The notes under the pieces: generated by a model
What the model was told of the DNA's origin: nothing
Seen by the model: the letters and a program-made list of their open reading frames with translations, nothing else
Databases searched by the model: none
Made by a program: the position numbers and the translations under genes
In this document: one piece after another, positions 29,888-36,191 of the stretch
How the letters are laid out: each line of letters begins with the position of its first letter
Position numbering within the stretch: the first letter of the stretch is position 1
Assembly: GCF_002024165.1 (NCBI RefSeq)
Contig: NZ_MWQN01000001.1
Span: forward strand, 5,187,501-5,251,500
DNA: 64,000 nt
From: Embleya scabrispora
Lineage (GTDB): Bacteria; Actinomycetota; Actinomycetes; Streptomycetales; Streptomycetaceae
Direction of reading: 5' to 3'

Positions 29888-30568
29888 CTACGTGCGACGG
29901 GCGCTGTCCGGGTGGGACTCGTATTCGGTCGGGTCGCCTCTGAAGGTGACGGTGCCTCGGCTGAGGGCGTAGACGACCTCGGCGCGGCGCAGGGCCTCGC
30001 CCGTGTGCTGTTCGACCAGGATCACCGTGCGCTCGGCCGTGGCCAGGGCGGCCACCACGCCGTACAGGTGGGCCGCCACGCGGGGGGCCAGGCCCTGGCT
30101 GAGTTCGTCCAGGAGCAGGAGCCTGGCGGGGGTGAGCAGGGCCCGGCTCACCGCGAGCATCTGCTGCTCGCCGCCGGAGAGCGTGCCGGCCCGCTGCCTC
30201 AGCCGATCGGCCAGCACCGGGAACGCGGTCAGGGCCGGCGCCACGTCGCGGCCGTCGGCGAACAGGCGCAGGTTGTCGGCCACGCTCAGGCCGGCGAACA
30301 CCCCGCCCCGCTCGGGGATCAGGGTCAGGCCGGCGCGGGCGCGGCGGTCGGCGGGCCAGGCGGTGACGTCCACACCGTCCCAGGTGATCGTGCCGGCGGT
30401 GGGCCGGACCAGCCCGGCCAGCGTGTCGAGGAGCGTGCTGCGACCGGAGCCGTTGCGGCCGACCAGCGCGGTGACGGCGCCGGCGGGGAAGTCCAGGTCG
30501 ACGCCGTGCAGCGCCTCGACCGGGCCGTGCCGGACCCGAAGTCCGCCGACTGACAGGGTGATCGGCAT
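29888..30568 (-). CDS. livF: LivF-like branched-chain amino acid ABC ATPase with altered Walker A
   Basis: A 226-residue ATPase. Walker A reads GRNGSGRST (residues 37-45), with Arg43 where the nucleotide-binding Lys is expected. The signature LSGGE is intact at 130-134 and Walker B LLLLDE at 151-155. The H-loop reads LVEQ as in other LivF proteins. The D-loop region is SQGLAP. It is the last gene of an operon with LivG-like and fused LivH-LivM proteins, overlapping LivG by one base. The Lys-to-Arg change should weaken ATP hydrolysis at its own site; see findings. Substrate is inferred from family only. Confidence 0.88.
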   Translation of the reverse strand: MPITLSVGGLRVRHGPVEALHGVDLDFPAGAVTALVGRNGSGRSTLLDTLAGLVRPTAGTITWDGVDVTAWPADRRARAGLTLIPERGGVFAGLSVADNLRLFADGRDVAPALTAFPVLADRLRQRAGTLSGGEQQMLAVSRALLTPARLLLLDELSQGLAPRVAAHLYGVVAALATAERTVILVEQHTGEALRRAEVVYALSRGTVTFRGDPTEYESHPDSARRT

Positions 30569-31308
30569 CAGAGGTACACCTCCCGGGCCCGCGCGTCGCG
30601 CCGGATCTCGTCCGGGGTGCCGGCCGCGACGATCCGGCCCGCGGCCATCACGTGCACCGTGTCGGCCACCCCGAACACCAGGTCCATGTCGTGTTCGACC
30701 AGCAGGATCGCCAGGCCGTCGGCGGCCAGCGCGCGCAGTTCGCGGCGCAGCCGCTCGGTCTGCGCGTCGTCGAGTCCGCTGGCCGGCTCGTCCAGGAGCA
30801 GTACCGACGGGGACGCCGCGAGCGCGCGCGCCAATTCGACCATCCGCAGTATCGCGGCCGGGAGTTCGCCGGCCCGGGTGTACGCGTGTTCGGTGAGCGC
30901 GAGCCGGTCGAGCGCCGCCTCCACCGCGTCCCCGGTCCGTCCTCGGGCGGGATCGGGCAGGCCGAGCAGGCGGGCCGGGGCGGAGGATCCGGACCGGTTC
31001 TCCGCGGCCACCCGCAGGTTGTCCACCACCGTCAGGCTGGGAAAGATCGACACCGCCTGGAACGTGCGGGCCAGCCCGAGCCGGGCCCGCCGGTGCGCGG
31101 GCAGCCGGGTCACGTCGCGCGTGCCCAGGTACACCCGCCCGGCATCGACACGCCCACCCGCCAGGCAGTCGAACAGGGTGCTCTTGCCCGCCCCGTTCGG
31201 CCCGATCACCGCCGTCACCACGCCCGACGGCACGGTCAGGTCGACCCCGTCCACGGCCCGCAGCCCGCCGAACCGGCGAACCACCCCCTGGGCCCGCAGC
31301 GCGCTCAC
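30568..31308 (-). CDS. livG: LivG-like branched-chain amino acid ABC ATPase with degenerate signature motif
   Basis: A 246-residue ATPase from GTG 31308, overlapping the permease stop (GTGA). Walker A GPNGAGKST (residues 36-44) is intact, Q-loop RTFQAVSIFPSL is normal, Walker B VLLLDEP ends at Glu174, D-loop SGLD, and the H-loop His206 is in LLVEHDMD. The ABC signature LSGGQ is replaced by LPAAI at 149-153, in GELPAAILRMVELARAL. Related actinobacterial LivG proteins have LPTG-like variants, so this may be a clade trait taken further. It pairs with the LivF-like protein. Confidence 0.88.
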   Translation of the reverse strand: MSALRAQGVVRRFGGLRAVDGVDLTVPSGVVTAVIGPNGAGKSTLFDCLAGGRVDAGRVYLGTRDVTRLPAHRRARLGLARTFQAVSIFPSLTVVDNLRVAAENRSGSSAPARLLGLPDPARGRTGDAVEAALDRLALTEHAYTRAGELPAAILRMVELARALAASPSVLLLDEPASGLDDAQTERLRRELRALAADGLAILLVEHDMDLVFGVADTVHVMAAGRIVAAGTPDEIRRDARAREVYL

Positions 31309-33227
31309 CCGCCCACCTCCGCCCGGCTCGCGCGCACCCGCTCGCGCAGGGTGCGCCCCAGCGGGCCGAGCCGGACCGGCGGGGGCGGCGGCGCGGGCAC
31401 CGGCGCCGGCCCCGCGGCCAGGCGCAGGAGGGTCGCCGGGACGCCGCCGGGCATCCGGGACAGCAGCACCGCCAGGCCGCCGATCACGATCGTGGACATG
31501 CCGGCCGTGGCGGCCGCGTCCAGGGCGACCACCAGGCCGGCGGCCAACACCGCGCCGGCCGCGCTGTCCACGCCGAACACCACCACCGCGGCGAACCAGA
31601 CCAGGCCGAGCACCGGGTCGAAGGCCGCCGCGTCGAAGGCGCGCCCGCCCATCCCGAGCAGCGCGCCGCCGAGCCCGGCCACGCCGGCGCTGACCGCGAA
31701 GACGAAGACCTTGGCCGAGGAGACGTCCACGCCGGCCGCCGCCGCGCCGCGCTCGTGGTCGCGGACCGCGACCAGCATCCGCCCGAGCCGGCTCACGTGC
31801 AGCCGGCGGACCACAAGGAGCACCAGTACGAGGCAGGCCAACTCCAGGGCGTAGAAGGAGCGTTCCCCGTCGAACGGCCACGGGTGGTCGAGTGCGAGGT
31901 CGGTGGTGAAGCGCGGCTGGGCGAAGACGAACCGGCTGACCACCGCGGCCACCGCGAAGGTGGTCAGCGCCAGGGTCAGCCCGCGCCGCCGGATCGCCGG
32001 CCACCCGGTCAGCAGGCCCACCGGCACCACCAGGAGCGCGGCCAGGAGCAGCGCGAGCAGGGCCGGGACGCCCCGCCCGGTCAGCTGCGCCGCGAACAAC
32101 GCGCCGAGTCCGGCGAAGCCGGCCTGGCCGAGCGAGATCTGGCCGGCGTATCCGGTGAGCATCACCAGCGACACGAACACGATCGCCATCGCCGGCACCT
32201 GCTGCGCGACCCGCAGATGTTCCGTGCCCAGCGCGAGCGGCGCCGCGGCGACCGCGACGAACGGCACCCACCAGCCCACCGGCGCGCTCTCCCCGTGCCC
32301 GGTCCCTATCCGGGCGCCGGCCGCGCGTTCCGGGTCGGGGCCGCCGACCTCGACCATGCGGGGCAGTACCAGGAGCGCGACCAGCATCACCACCACGAAC
32401 AGGTTCGCCTGGAGCGCCTGGATAAGTCCCCACGAGTCGGGTTCGAGCCGGGACAACTCGCTCTGCCCCACCCCGATCGCCAACGCCGCCAGGATCGCCA
32501 CCGGCAGACTGGCCAGCCGGGCCACCACCGCGACGCCGATCGTCTCCAGGACGAGCAGGGTCAGGCCGTACGGATCCAGCCGCAGGTGCGGCGCGAGCAA
32601 CACGCCGGTCAGCCCCGCCAGCATCGACCCGAAGGCCCACCCGGCCGCGGCGACGCGATCGGCCGGCACCCCGGACAACTCGGCCAGGGCCCGTCGGTCC
32701 ACCACCGCGCGCAGCCGCACACCGAAGCGGGTGAACCGGGTGACGACGGCGACCAGTACGGCGACCGCGGCCACCACGCCCAGTTCGACCAGCGTCCCCT
32801 TGGCCACCGACGTGTCGCCGGGCAGGCCGACCGTGCCCGTCGGCACGATCGAGGGCGGATCGAGCCGGGCCTGGGTGCCCCAGGCCAGCGTGGCCACGCC
32901 GACCAGGAGCACGAACACGCCCAGCGAGGCGACCAGCATCCGGGCCGGACCGGCCCCCTCGCGGTGCAGACCGCGAAAGACGAAGCGCTCCAGGACCAGG
33001 CCGAGCGCCGGCGCCACCACGCCCACGTCGAGCAGTACCGCCGCCCACAGCGGCCAGCCCCACACGCGCACCTGCTGCCAGACGAGGTAGGCCACGATCA
33101 TCGCGAGTGCGCCGAAGGACAGGTTGAACACGCCGGTGGCCCGGTAGGAGGTGATCATCCCGACCGCCGCGAGCGCCGCGATCGCGCCCACGCCCAGCCC
33201 GGCGAGCGCCAGTTCGACGGTGAGCAC
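31305..33227 (-). CDS. Fused LivH-LivM permease of a branched-chain amino acid-type ABC importer
   Basis: A 640-residue protein joining both permeases that are usually separate. Residues about 1-305 are LivH-like (GAIAALAAVGMITSYRATGVFNLSFGALAMI, then TRFTRFGVRLRAVVDRRALAELSGV). After a linker near 315-345, residues 350-600 are LivM-like (LTGYAGQISLGQAGFAGLGALFAA, LGRMLVAVRDHERGAAAAGVD, GGLGGALLG-like turn). GTG 33227 is chosen as the start of the first helix; upstream sequence belongs to the preceding gene. The last 35 residues are Pro-rich and cytoplasmic. A fused permease is uncommon but known in actinobacteria. Confidence 0.9.
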   Translation of the reverse strand: MLTVELALAGLGVGAIAALAAVGMITSYRATGVFNLSFGALAMIVAYLVWQQVRVWGWPLWAAVLLDVGVVAPALGLVLERFVFRGLHREGAGPARMLVASLGVFVLLVGVATLAWGTQARLDPPSIVPTGTVGLPGDTSVAKGTLVELGVVAAVAVLVAVVTRFTRFGVRLRAVVDRRALAELSGVPADRVAAAGWAFGSMLAGLTGVLLAPHLRLDPYGLTLLVLETIGVAVVARLASLPVAILAALAIGVGQSELSRLEPDSWGLIQALQANLFVVVMLVALLVLPRMVEVGGPDPERAAGARIGTGHGESAPVGWWVPFVAVAAAPLALGTEHLRVAQQVPAMAIVFVSLVMLTGYAGQISLGQAGFAGLGALFAAQLTGRGVPALLALLLAALLVVPVGLLTGWPAIRRRGLTLALTTFAVAAVVSRFVFAQPRFTTDLALDHPWPFDGERSFYALELACLVLVLLVVRRLHVSRLGRMLVAVRDHERGAAAAGVDVSSAKVFVFAVSAGVAGLGGALLGMGGRAFDAAAFDPVLGLVWFAAVVVFGVDSAAGAVLAAGLVVALDAAATAGMSTIVIGGLAVLLSRMPGGVPATLLRLAAGPAPVPAPPPPPVRLGPLGRTLRERVRASRAEVGG

Positions 33228-33232
33228 GGCGC

Positions 33233-33898
33233 TCAGCCGTCGGCGCCGGGCGCGCTCGGCCCGTCGGTCCCGGCATCGCCCCCGAAGGCCCCGTCCGACC
33301 GTCCACCGGCCGCACCGCGAGCGCTCGAACCCGCCGCCGGGCCGGGATCGCACAACCGGCACGGCCGCAGGTCCCGATCCCGCACCGCCGCCGCATCCAC
33401 CGGCGTCACCCCGTTCTTGCCCCGCACCAGCGAGCACCCGCTCCGGTGATAGCGCGCTCCGCCCGGAACCGTCACCCACGCCGCCCCGGCGCCCACCTCG
33501 GCCGCCGCGTCGGTCGGCTCCGGCTCGACCAGCAGCTCGTACAGCCGGCCCATCATCCGCCGCAACTCCGCGTTCTCCACGCTCGTCCCGGCGGCGGCCT
33601 CCGCCGTCCCGCGCCGGGTCCCCACCACGAGTACCGCGCCCGCGACGATCAGCGCCGCGCCCGGAATGGTGGCCGAGGCCAGGTAGGGCAGTTGGCGCGC
33701 CTCGTACCGTTCACCCGACACGCCGTACCACCCCACCGCGCACAGCAGCGCCCCGCACAACCCGACGAACCAGCCGCCGTGCGTGCGCGCCAACCGCCGC
33801 AAACCCTCGATGGCCGGGGGCGCGGCGGCCGTACGCTGTCTTTCGGCAAGGGAGTTCGCCTTTCCCGTGGAACCTGCCGAGTTCGTCGAACCTGCCAT
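33233..33898 (-). CDS. Membrane protein with a Cys-rich metal-site-like C-terminus
   Basis: A 221-residue protein starting at ATG 33898. Two helices lie near residues 40-58 (WFVGLCGALLCAVGWYGV) and 70-92. A coiled-coil-like ENAELRRMMGRLYELL follows, and the soluble part has YHRSGCSLVRGKNGVTPVD, then RDLRPCRLCDPG. This His-x-x-x-Cys ... Cys-x-x-Cys arrangement resembles the Ada-like metal-binding modules at the ends of several actinobacterial membrane proteins. It lies 5 bases before the Liv permease and probably heads that operon. Role in the transporter is unknown. Confidence 0.8.
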   Translation of the reverse strand: MAGSTNSAGSTGKANSLAERQRTAAAPPAIEGLRRLARTHGGWFVGLCGALLCAVGWYGVSGERYEARQLPYLASATIPGAALIVAGAVLVVGTRRGTAEAAAGTSVENAELRRMMGRLYELLVEPEPTDAAAEVGAGAAWVTVPGGARYHRSGCSLVRGKNGVTPVDAAAVRDRDLRPCRLCDPGPAAGSSARGAAGGRSDGAFGGDAGTDGPSAPGADG

Positions 33899-34025
33899 AT
33901 GGTCCACCCGTCGAGTCCGCCCGATTGCGTATCGGTGCCTCAGCGTAGTTCGCCGGGATCTGGTCATACGGCCCGGAACACGATTGGATACCGAGTCGCG
34001 CATGGCAACATGACTTGCCGGTAAC

Positions 34026-34095: not shown

Positions 34096-34749
34096 GTGAG
34101 CGTGGACTTGATCAACGAGCGGGCCAAGCGGAACGGCACCGGTGCGGGTCGGCGCAAGGGCGCGCGCCGTGCGCTGCTGGCCCTGCCGCTGGTGGCGGTG
34201 CTGGTGATGTCCGGGTGTAGCAGCGACGACGACAAGGACGACAAGAAGGACGCCAAGGCGTCCCAGTCGGCGAGCGCGCCGGCGGCGGGTGGCCAGACCA
34301 GCGCCGCGACTCCGCCGGCCACCGCCTCGTCGCCCGCCACCGCGGGCGGCAGCAGCGGCGCCCCCTCGACCGGCGGCGGCTCGACCACGTTGACCGGCGA
34401 GGAGAAGAAGGTCGCCGACAACTGGGACAAGCTGTTCGACAACGCCCAGCCGCTCGACGCGCGCAAGGCGGTTTTGGAGAACGCGGACAAGATGGGCGCG
34501 CTCGTCGAGACGCTCGCCAACGACCCGCTGGCCAAGTCGGTCACCTCCAAGACCACCGCGGTCAAGATCAACGGCGACACCGCGGACGTCACGTTCGACA
34601 TCCTGCTCGCCGGCACCCCGGCGCTGCCCGGCCAGAACGGCAAGGCGGTCAAGCAGGACGGTACCTGGAAGGTCAGCCTGGGCACCGTCTGCACGCTGGT
34701 CGGCGCGCTCAAGCCGGGCACCGTCGCCCCGGGTTGCCCGACGGCCTGA
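34096..34749 (+). CDS. Secreted lipoprotein of unknown function
   Basis: A 217-residue protein from GTG 34096. It has a basic N-terminus, hydrophobic ALLALPLVAVLVMSG and a lipobox Cys at 41 (MSGC). A low-complexity Ser/Ala/Thr/Pro linker covers residues 45-100. The folded domain (about 105-215) reads LTGEEKKVADNWDKLFD, KAVLENADKMGALVETL, TSKTTAVKINGDTADVTFDILL and GTWKVSLGTVC, resembling low-molecular-weight antigen MTB12-like lipoproteins (a TetR-unrelated NTF2-like fold). The two late Cys residues may form a disulphide. Confidence 0.85.
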   Translation: MSVDLINERAKRNGTGAGRRKGARRALLALPLVAVLVMSGCSSDDDKDDKKDAKASQSASAPAAGGQTSAATPPATASSPATAGGSSGAPSTGGGSTTLTGEEKKVADNWDKLFDNAQPLDARKAVLENADKMGALVETLANDPLAKSVTSKTTAVKINGDTADVTFDILLAGTPALPGQNGKAVKQDGTWKVSLGTVCTLVGALKPGTVAPGCPTA

Positions 34750-34805: not shown

Positions 34806-36191
34806 ATGCATCGTCGTATCCACGGACGGCGCATGCCGTGCGCCTCGGTGGCCCTGGTGCTGTCCGGCGTGTTGTGCGCGGTCGCCGCGCTGACCGGGTG
34901 CGGTTCGCGGCTGCCGGAGCGCGACTTCCGCGAGGATCGTGCTCCGGCACCCGCGTCCGCCGCCGCGGTGCCGAACACCAACACCGCGTCCGACGTGGGC
35001 GTCACGCCCACGGAGATCACCGTGGGCATGATCGACACCGTCCAAGGGGTGCTCGGCAACGAGACGTTCTCCGGGCCGATGTACGGCGCCCAGGCCTATT
35101 TCAAGGCGCTCAACGACCGCGGCGGGGTGAACGGGCGCCGGGTGAAGGTGTCCGCCTGCGACGACAACGGCTACGGCGTGGCCAACCAGCGCTGCGCCCG
35201 CCGACTGGTCGAGGACGACAAGGTGTTCGCCTTCGCGGGCAACAGCATCTACAGCTACAACGCCGCCCAGTACGTCAGCGACAAGGGCGTGCCCGACGTC
35301 GGCGGGCAGCCGATCGGGACCGCGTACGAGACGTACCCGCACCTGTACTCGATCTACGGATCGCGCGCGCCACGCGACGGCAAGGTGGGCTGGGACGGCC
35401 GGCTGTACGCGAGCACCGAGGTCTACCGCTACTTCAAGGAGAAACTCGGCGCCCGCACCGCCGCCGTGGTGTCGTACAACCAGGCCGACTCCGCGCGCTA
35501 CGCGCAGACCGTCGCCGACGGGCTGCGCTCCGAGGGCTACACGGTCGTCGAGAAGCAGGTCGACTTCGCGCTGCCGAACTTCGCCGCCGCGGTGGTGGAC
35601 ATGCGCAGCAAGGGCGTCGACATCGTCTTCGACGCGGTGGACACGCGCGGCAACGTCGAACTGTGCAAGGCGATGGACGGCAGCGACCTGCGGGTGACCG
35701 CCAAGGTGACCAACGTGCAGAACTGGAACGCCCGCGTCGGCGAGGACTTCAAGGCGTCCCCGACCTGCCGCAACAGCATCTACGCGACCGGCAACAGCCG
35801 GGGCTACACGGACACCGGGCAGCCCGCGGTGGCCGAGTTCCGGGCCGCGATGAAGAAGTACTTCCCCGACCGCGAGGACAAGCTCTCCCAGTGGGAACTG
35901 GAGGGCTGGGCCTCGGCGATGTGGCTCACCGACGCGATCGCCTCGTGCGGCGCCAAGGTGACCCGGGCCTGCGTCGAGGGCTTCGTCAACCGCCCCGAGG
36001 GCTACGACGCGCACGGCCTGCTGATCCCGGTCGACTTCAAGGCCGAACCGGTCGACCGCGTCGCCGCACCCACCCGCACCTGCTTCGACGTGGCCCGCTG
36101 GCAGGACGGCGCCCCGGGCGGCTGGATCGCCCAGGTGCCGGACATGACCACGAACTGCTTCGACGTACCGTCCCTGCCGTACAAACCGTGA
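34806..36191 (+). CDS. ABC transporter substrate-binding lipoprotein (Liv/periplasmic-binding type)
   Basis: A 461-residue lipoprotein; GAGGAG lies 7 nt before ATG 34806 and the lipobox is ALTGC with Cys32. The type I binding-protein fold is seen in ITVGMIDTVQGVLGNETFSGPMYGAQAYFKALNDRGGVNGRRV, DDNGYGVANQRCARRLVEDDKVFAFAG-like segments, GVPDVGGQPIG, and ARTAAVVSYNQADSARYAQTV. Several Cys pairs suit an exported protein. It is the natural partner for the Liv-type ATPases and permease 1-4 kb to the left, although it is on the opposite strand. Confidence 0.92.
   Translation: MHRRIHGRRMPCASVALVLSGVLCAVAALTGCGSRLPERDFREDRAPAPASAAAVPNTNTASDVGVTPTEITVGMIDTVQGVLGNETFSGPMYGAQAYFKALNDRGGVNGRRVKVSACDDNGYGVANQRCARRLVEDDKVFAFAGNSIYSYNAAQYVSDKGVPDVGGQPIGTAYETYPHLYSIYGSRAPRDGKVGWDGRLYASTEVYRYFKEKLGARTAAVVSYNQADSARYAQTVADGLRSEGYTVVEKQVDFALPNFAAAVVDMRSKGVDIVFDAVDTRGNVELCKAMDGSDLRVTAKVTNVQNWNARVGEDFKASPTCRNSIYATGNSRGYTDTGQPAVAEFRAAMKKYFPDREDKLSQWELEGWASAMWLTDAIASCGAKVTRACVEGFVNRPEGYDAHGLLIPVDFKAEPVDRVAAPTRTCFDVARWQDGAPGGWIAQVPDMTTNCFDVPSLPYKP

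Follow-up and report, generated by a model that had tools for sequence, protein, structure and literature searches.

Motif loss concentrated in one composite ATP site of Liv-type ABC importers: a Walker A arginine in LivF of Embleya scabrispora and its relatives

Gene set and motifs at the locus

We analyzed a 64,000-nucleotide stretch of Embleya scabrispora DNA (the window) that encodes a putative Liv-type ABC importer. Its genes, and the motifs of the two ATPases, lie as follows.

29888–30568, minus strand: LivF-type ATPase of 226 aa, with Arg43 in place of the Walker A Lys (translation, NCBIfam, model)
30568–31308, minus strand: LivG-type ATPase, 246 aa (translation, NCBIfam, Pfam)
31305–33227, minus strand: fused LivH-LivM permease, 640 aa, two BPD_transp_2 (PF02653) stretches (Pfam)
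33233–34003, minus strand: small membrane protein of uncertain start, upstream neighbor of the permease, without Pfam family
34096–34749, plus strand: small lipoprotein-like gene between permease and binding protein, without Pfam family
34833–36191, plus strand: substrate-binding lipoprotein, Peripla_BP_6 (PF13458), divergent, start set by eye
30434–30460, minus strand: LivF Walker A, GRNGSGRST (Arg43 codon CGC at 30440–30442)
30311–30313, minus strand: LivF Q-loop position, occupied by Glu86 (12 of 259 pairs have Gln)
30167–30181, minus strand: LivF signature LSGGE, intact, partner of the LivG Walker A
30104–30121, minus strand: LivF Walker B, LLLLDE, with catalytic Glu155 (Glu in 259 of 259)
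30008–30010, minus strand: LivF H-loop position, Gln187 in place of His (LVEQ)
31177–31203, minus strand: LivG Walker A, GPNGAGKST, intact
30850–30864, minus strand: LivG signature, LPAAI (group norm LPTGT)
30691–30693, minus strand: LivG H-loop, His206, conserved in all 259 pairs

Translation recovered at these positions every motif that the earlier note had quoted, both for LivF (GRNGSGRST, LSGGE, LVEQ) and for LivG (GPNGAGKST, LPAAI). The predicted LivF model covers the whole ATPase domain, with a mean pLDDT of 92.3, and its best fold match is 1ji0, a Thermotoga LivF-type structure. The LivF of the window is 82% identical to that of the nearest named record, E. scabrispora DSM 41855 (L024), whose contig is carried by G002, a genome of the same genus as the window.

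The permease, LivG and LivF genes follow one another on the minus strand with overlapping ends. Pfam placed ABC_tran on both ATPases, BCA_ABC_TP_C on LivG, BPD_transp_2 on the permease and Peripla_BP_6 on the binding protein (E 9.2e-43). Thus, LivF/LivG-type ATPases adjoin a PF02653 permease and a Peripla_BP_6 protein is linked to them, the arrangement that defines Liv-type (HAAT) importers; LivF and LivG are separate genes, unlike the fused ATPase domains that define CUT2 systems (RbsA). The NCBIfam matches considered (the best 25 of 182 for LivF, the best 25 of 183 for LivG and all 7 for the permease) were below cut-off, with UrtE and LivF the best for LivF, and NCBIfam gave no match for the binding protein. 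Among six relatives, the permease was present in all six and a binding protein homologue was linked to the operon in five. The small membrane protein, which reads GWYGVSGE in the window, recurred as a GWYxxSGE frame in 6/6, and the lipoprotein-like gene had a BLAST homologue in 5/6, beyond the permease; both proteins, which recur beside the importer, are possible accessory subunits. Between the window and a sister genome (G001), dN/dS was 0.25 for LivF, 0.18 for LivG, 0.23 for LivHM and 0.14 for the binding protein.

Sampling of LivF–LivG pairs

Each LivF was paired with LivG by the best BLASTP match on one strand, the pairs were aligned and the motif columns were read. In the first set, the best frame was LivF-like at 220 of 229 loci, 212 of them unique; leaving out loci without a same-strand LivG, together with L005, L010 and L017, gave 204 unique pairs. 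The full collection comprised 259 unique pairs, and the tree was built from 159 of these, with the loci from pattern, CUT2 and synteny work (L230–L255 and L263) also left out. One row (L276) has no LivG Walker A in the alignment, which leaves 258 readable rows for that motif. The Lys-type group with a Thr-type LivG signature numbered 45 by rule and 44 once L092, a non-actinobacterial pair with a canonical LSGGQ, was removed. Genus, order and class names of the other genomes, G002 excepted, are presumptive.

Two composite ATP sites across 259 pairs

Each ABC ATP site is built from the Walker A of one subunit and the signature of its partner. From this the earlier note had argued for one intact and one degenerate site, a division that the motif reading of 259 pairs bears out. 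On the LivG side of site 1, the Walker A Lys was present in all 258 readable rows, and the Q-loop Gln, Walker B Glu and H-loop His in 259/259. On its LivF side, the signature Ser-Gly-Gly was found in 259/259, partly by construction of the search: 80 loci were found via peptides including GGEQQMLA. Site 2, in which the LivG signature faces the LivF Walker A, Q-loop and H-loop, was off-consensus in every pair read. The Walker A Lys of LivF was lost in 95 of the 259 pairs (Arg in 94), and the LivF H-loop position was Gln in 245, Pro in 10, Lys in 3 and Ser in 1, never His. Catalytic-motif losses were therefore confined to one composite site, with site 1 intact in all readable rows. No loss of the LivG Walker A lysine appeared in those 258 rows, which were gathered without a deliberate search for such loss. 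The catalytic Walker B Glu of LivF was kept in 259/259, so site 2 lacks the altered Walker B that marks degenerate sites of the exporter type.

These counts also shift the yardstick for individual motifs. The LVEQ H-loop, which the earlier note had added to the degenerate site, is present as described, but it is no defect peculiar to this LivF. Likewise, LSGGQ, against which LPAAI had been judged, is the wrong standard for LivG: a single LivG among 259 (L092) has it. Tyr at the first signature Gly, mostly as LPYGx or LSYGx, was found in 69 of the 84 Lys-type pairs outside the Thr-type group.

The Lys-to-Arg change in the Streptomycetales group

In the Streptomycetales group, the Walker A position of LivF was Arg in 74 of 75 unique pairs and Cys in one. 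The 75 unique LivF used CGC (32), CGT (31), CGG (10) and AGA (1) for Arg and TGC (1) for Cys, and by conservation Arg43 ranked within the top 44 of 212 LivF columns. Because the codon changes silently while the residue stays fixed, selection must hold Arg at this position. The earlier note had named a sequencing error at the Arg codon as one outcome that would undo its reading; with Arg in 74 of the 75 LivF and four codons in use, that error is rejected, and Arg43 is no accident of one sequence. The Walker A glycines and the Walker B Asp-Glu of LivF were likewise kept in 75/75, as was Gln187, and the invariant glycines and Asp-Glu suggest that the nucleotide scaffold of site 2 is maintained.

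At E values up to 1e-54, a family search hit 57 of 394 genomes and yielded 57 LivF, of which 56 had Arg and one Cys; 8 of the 57 matches were flagged with a stop inside, and motifs were taken from stop-free frames. Outside the window's family, the LivF read from the same 394-genome draw had Lys in 46/46 (L161–L189 and L212–L228). Judged on these sequences, the Lys-to-Arg change is a real, old and preserved trait. Its history within the group may hold more than one event. Nine LivF of family f3 have Lys and fall inside or next to the Arg clade, with L133, L134 and L138 inside it, so a reversion or two gains are possible; the best tree needs two state changes, and a single gain was not rejected (p-AU 0.288). 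In each of the six f3 genomes with an Arg-type system (L132, L135–L137, L139 and L140) whose second system of the same kind was read, that paralogue was Lys-type (L256–L261).

Two further features of the Walker A loop were observed. The LivF of L112 (genome G018) reads GPNGSGCTT, with Cys at the lysine position. Arg at position 2 of the motif (GRNG; 30455–30457 in the window) occurred in 74 of 75 Streptomycetales-group pairs vs 8 of 129 Lys-type pairs, and outside this group the search pattern required it in the seed loci. Arg at position 2 may pre-adapt the loop to loss of the lysine.

LivG signatures and the order of events

The LivG partners of the 75 Arg or Cys pairs in the Streptomycetales group read LPTGT in 59, and the second Gly of the signature was kept in 74/75. 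LPAAI was seen in this genome alone; two Embleya relatives read LPAGI and LPAGV, from which its Gly-to-Ala change differs by one base (GGG to GCG). LPAAI could therefore be a sequencing error or a recent substitution. LivM and LivG shared one open frame in 48 of the 75 Streptomycetales-group pairs, against 2/45 and 8/84 in the Lys-type sets.

Lys-type actinobacterial pairs with a changed LivG signature numbered 44, of which 43 were Thr-type (mostly LPTGA or LPTGT) and one read LPGGT. In the trees, the Arg group nests among these 44. Since it is nested among Thr-type Lys pairs, the change in the LivG signature predates Lys-to-Arg. Of four independent pairs, a mean of 1.7 had both traits shifting in one direction and 2.3 showed no difference; the sign test on these pairs gave a median p of 0.5 and is without power. 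Strict coupling of the two defects is not supported, and a further change in the LivG signature does not regularly accompany Arg. Arg and the LivG signature defect are only loosely linked.

The earlier note had taken two independent changes landing in one site as a sign of co-selection. That argument is weak: the signature change is the older of the two, and the independent pairs moved together in 1.7 of four. The check that it had proposed, an alignment of LivF–LivG pairs, leaves co-occurrence weak and asymmetry standing; in its proposal of an asymmetric site arrangement kept by selection, the asymmetry and the retention of Arg hold, and the inference from paired changes is not supported. Repeated, one-sided loss in LivF is a better argument for asymmetry than two changes landing together.

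The motif distribution suggests the following order. The absence of the LivF H-loop His and of the LivG LSGGQ (one row excepted), common to the whole sampled family, would be the first step. An LPTG-type LivG signature would then have arisen in one actinobacterial branch, followed by Lys-to-Arg in LivF of the Streptomycetales group and, lastly, by the Gly-to-Ala change in the LivG signature of this genome alone.

Recurrence in other lineages

Within the class, a DNA pattern for GRNG[AS]GR[ST]T was found in 17 of 394 genomes. Fifteen of these matches, including that of the window, fall in LivF, all within the window's family; those at L230 and L244 were dismissed as chance because they do not lie in ABC proteins. 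Across the phylum, 5 of 296 genomes matched, among them G991 of another class, and in the classes of the Duganella (L048) and Bradyrhizobium (L034) genomes the pattern matched 3/114 and 1/115 genomes, respectively. All five loci from the Duganella and Bradyrhizobium pattern work are LivF-type. The reversed control pattern also matched (one genome in the class, two in the phylum, two in the Duganella class and two in the Bradyrhizobium class), so each match had to be read or placed. The pattern demands GRN and misses other Arg-type Walker A motifs. Plasmid relatives, 27 in number, were picked by hand from 80 listed places, out of 258 and 50 matching records; they were found by similarity and not chosen by Arg, and 14 had Arg and 13 Lys.

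Outside the Streptomycetales group, Arg-type LivF formed two further groups, both proteobacterial. Group C (9 rows) includes Cupriavidus, Variovorax, Azospirillum, Caballeronia and Duganella. Its Arg rows have LivG signatures LPYGR (5), MPYGR (3) and LSYGH (1), and seven Lys-type relatives have LPYGR or LSYGR, so that Arg rows and Lys relatives share the kind of signature. Group D (10 rows) includes Sulfitobacter, Rhizobium, Cupriavidus, Caballeronia, Thalassospira, Paracoccus, Phaeobacter and Variovorax. Its LivF have Arg and the partner signature has lost its Gly in 10/10 (to Ala, Ser or Pro, e.g. LSYAE, LSYSE and LTYPE); this is the only group in which Arg goes together with a lost signature Gly. 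A single clade of C and D was rejected (p-AU 1e-9), and a shared origin would therefore need several returns to Lys. The LivF of G991 (L262) reads GRNGAGRTT with Ser at the H-loop, beside a LivG signature LPQGN; its Arg, like that of L280–L284, is present by construction of the pattern. Its branch is very long (2.43) and its placement unsure, and none of 16 other LivF matches in 71 genomes around it had Arg.

The 159-row tree needs five changes, and its supported branches force four. Three origins of lysine loss are well supported (the Streptomycetales group, C and D), and G991 is likely a fourth. These trees indicate that LivF lost the Walker A lysine at least three times and probably four.

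Several group D systems (L294, L295, L297, L298, L306 and L307) often stand beside fatty-acid, CoA or keto-acid genes, including acyl-CoA dehydrogenase, thioesterase, enoyl-CoA hydratase and SDR oxidoreductases. Given these neighbors, the group D substrate may not be an amino acid.

Proposed working of the importer

The sequences show directly how the motifs are distributed and conserved, that LivF lost its lysine repeatedly, and that the gene set is intact and conserved. From them we consider it probable that this is a working Liv-type importer (putative substrate: branched-chain-amino-acid-like) and, jointly, that its two composite sites have different jobs, site 1 being hydrolytic and site 2 probably holding ATP with little or no hydrolysis. 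We infer that LivF and LivG form a heterodimer in which Arg cripples hydrolysis while ATP is still bound at site 2. Site 1 (LivG Walker A, Q-loop, Walker B and H-loop with the LivF LSGGE) would hydrolyze ATP, and site 2 (the same elements of LivF with the LivG signature) would act as a clamp that holds ATP, hydrolyzing it slowly or not at all. ATP binding would close the LivF–LivG dimer; hydrolysis at site 1 would reopen it, with site 2 keeping its ATP. Slow hydrolysis at site 2 is possible because LivF keeps the Walker B Glu, unlike most degenerate exporter sites.

The weakness of site 2 in every pair read could also mean that the site is irrelevant and drifting, with Arg as the easiest replacement and no selected role for it. 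Recurrent losses that are loosely linked to the LivG signature would fit such decay, as would LPAAI, a single private base. Drift should scatter residues, yet Arg stands in 74 of 75 LivF under four codons, with the Cys of L112 the sole exception, and both Walker B and the glycines of Walker A are invariant. We regard neutral decay as unlikely on this balance.

We give still less weight to the idea that Arg serves as well as Lys, so that both sites hydrolyze and the importer is symmetric in practice. Arg retains the charge, LivF keeps its Walker B Glu and Walker A glycines, and group C contains Arg-type LivF with LPYG-type partners. Set against this are the absence of the LivF H-loop His in 259/259 and of LSGGQ in 258 of 259 LivG, and an Arg Walker A site in ABCG5/G8 that is reported to be hydrolytically inactive (PMC7756502). 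Moreover, equal function would not predict a lysine replacement that goes unseen in LivG.

The composite-site logic would not apply if LivF and LivG formed homodimers or had other partners, which we consider very improbable. PDB sequence and fold searches found no structure of the complex, and the heterodimer is presumed by analogy with the family. The gene arrangement speaks for it: livF adjoins livG, and a LivH-LivM-LivG chain beside a separate livF fits one LivG per permease pair. Such a chain is encoded at L250 (7960–10617; 885 aa, two PF02653 stretches and one ABC_tran), and a second at L254 (7721–10417) is judged a LivH-LivM-LivG fusion from length and homology only; a separate livF adjoins each, and both come from a genus (g9) that is presumably Streptomyces. 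As fusion ties one LivG to each permease pair, a LivG–LivF heterodimer would be the natural assembly. A sequencing error or dying gene, to which the single-base distance of LPAAI from its relatives might point, is next to impossible for Arg43 and ruled out there, given Arg in 94 of 259 LivF, dN/dS ratios far below 1 and a gene neighborhood that is conserved.

With the two sites dividing their work as proposed, a wider reading, which we put forward tentatively and at rather less than even chances, would make all Liv-type importers single-site ATPases, with LivG as the sole hydrolytic site and LivF as a standing ATP clamp whose Lys has, in several lineages, convergently become a fixed Arg, a trait not seen in LivG. 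This wider reading fits the pairs analyzed here. Liv-type importers are common in bacteria; if they pair one catalytic with one ATP-holding site, estimates of ATP per substrate and the mutational logic of the family would change. The natural recurrence of Lys-to-Arg, including paralogue pairs within genomes, offers ready-made variants for studying single-site importers.

Comparison with known systems

Searches of the open-access full-text literature returned no account of ATPase asymmetry in Liv importers (the match concerned a chemoreceptor), which is no proof that it is unpublished, and nothing on a degenerate Walker A or H-loop in branched-chain amino acid ABC transporters or on the Walker A of UrtD/UrtE. 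Ordinary Liv/HAAT importers (LivF-type 1ji0; LivG-type 1g6h, MJ1267) share the ATPase pair, permease family, fold and LivF H-loop Gln; they differ in that 1ji0 retains the Walker A Lys and the MJ1267 signature is LSGGQ.

The closest motif likeness is to ABCG5/ABCG8, where the ABCG8 Walker A has Arg (GSSGCGRAS) and the ABCG5 signature reads ISTGE in the same composite site (PMC7756502); GRNGxGR[ST]T and LPTGT are their counterparts in the Liv group. The same paper describes this site, with its Arg Walker A and Thr-type signature, as inactive, and reports that the same changes put into the intact site kill the transporter (PMC7756502). By contrast with Liv systems, ABCG5/ABCG8 is a human, eukaryotic sterol exporter whose ATPase and membrane domains share a single chain. 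Among exporters, Pdr5 and related fungal PDR proteins have one site with Walker A Lys changed to Cys, as in the LivF of L112, together with a changed H-loop and a changed partner signature (PMC7756269). They are full-length exporters and differ in having lost the Walker B Glu too; making all four deviant-site motifs of Pdr5 canonical is reported to have abolished activity (PMC7756269). In P-glycoprotein, Lys-to-Met in one Walker A is reported to leave about 15% of transport (PMC4846820).

CUT2 systems are bacterial importers, as Liv systems are. In PMC11466899, RbsA and NupO of B. subtilis are described as missing the Lys of the second Walker A, with one signature deviant; unlike Liv systems, they have both ATPase domains in one chain, with other substrates and binding proteins. 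A CUT2-type protein of this genome (L247:1462–3009) has Walker A motifs GENGAGKST and GLVGAGRSE and signatures LSPAQ and LSGGN, with LSPAQ as the partner signature of GLVGAGRSE, and adjoins a PF02653 permease, of the same family as the Liv permease. Its second domain reads ISSE, by eye, at the H-loop His position, in line with its Arg Walker A. Two importer groups with a PF02653 permease thus have an Arg Walker A. Degenerate sites have known parallels in these systems; a Liv importer with separate ATPases and a recurrent, preserved Arg Walker A site is a new form among them.
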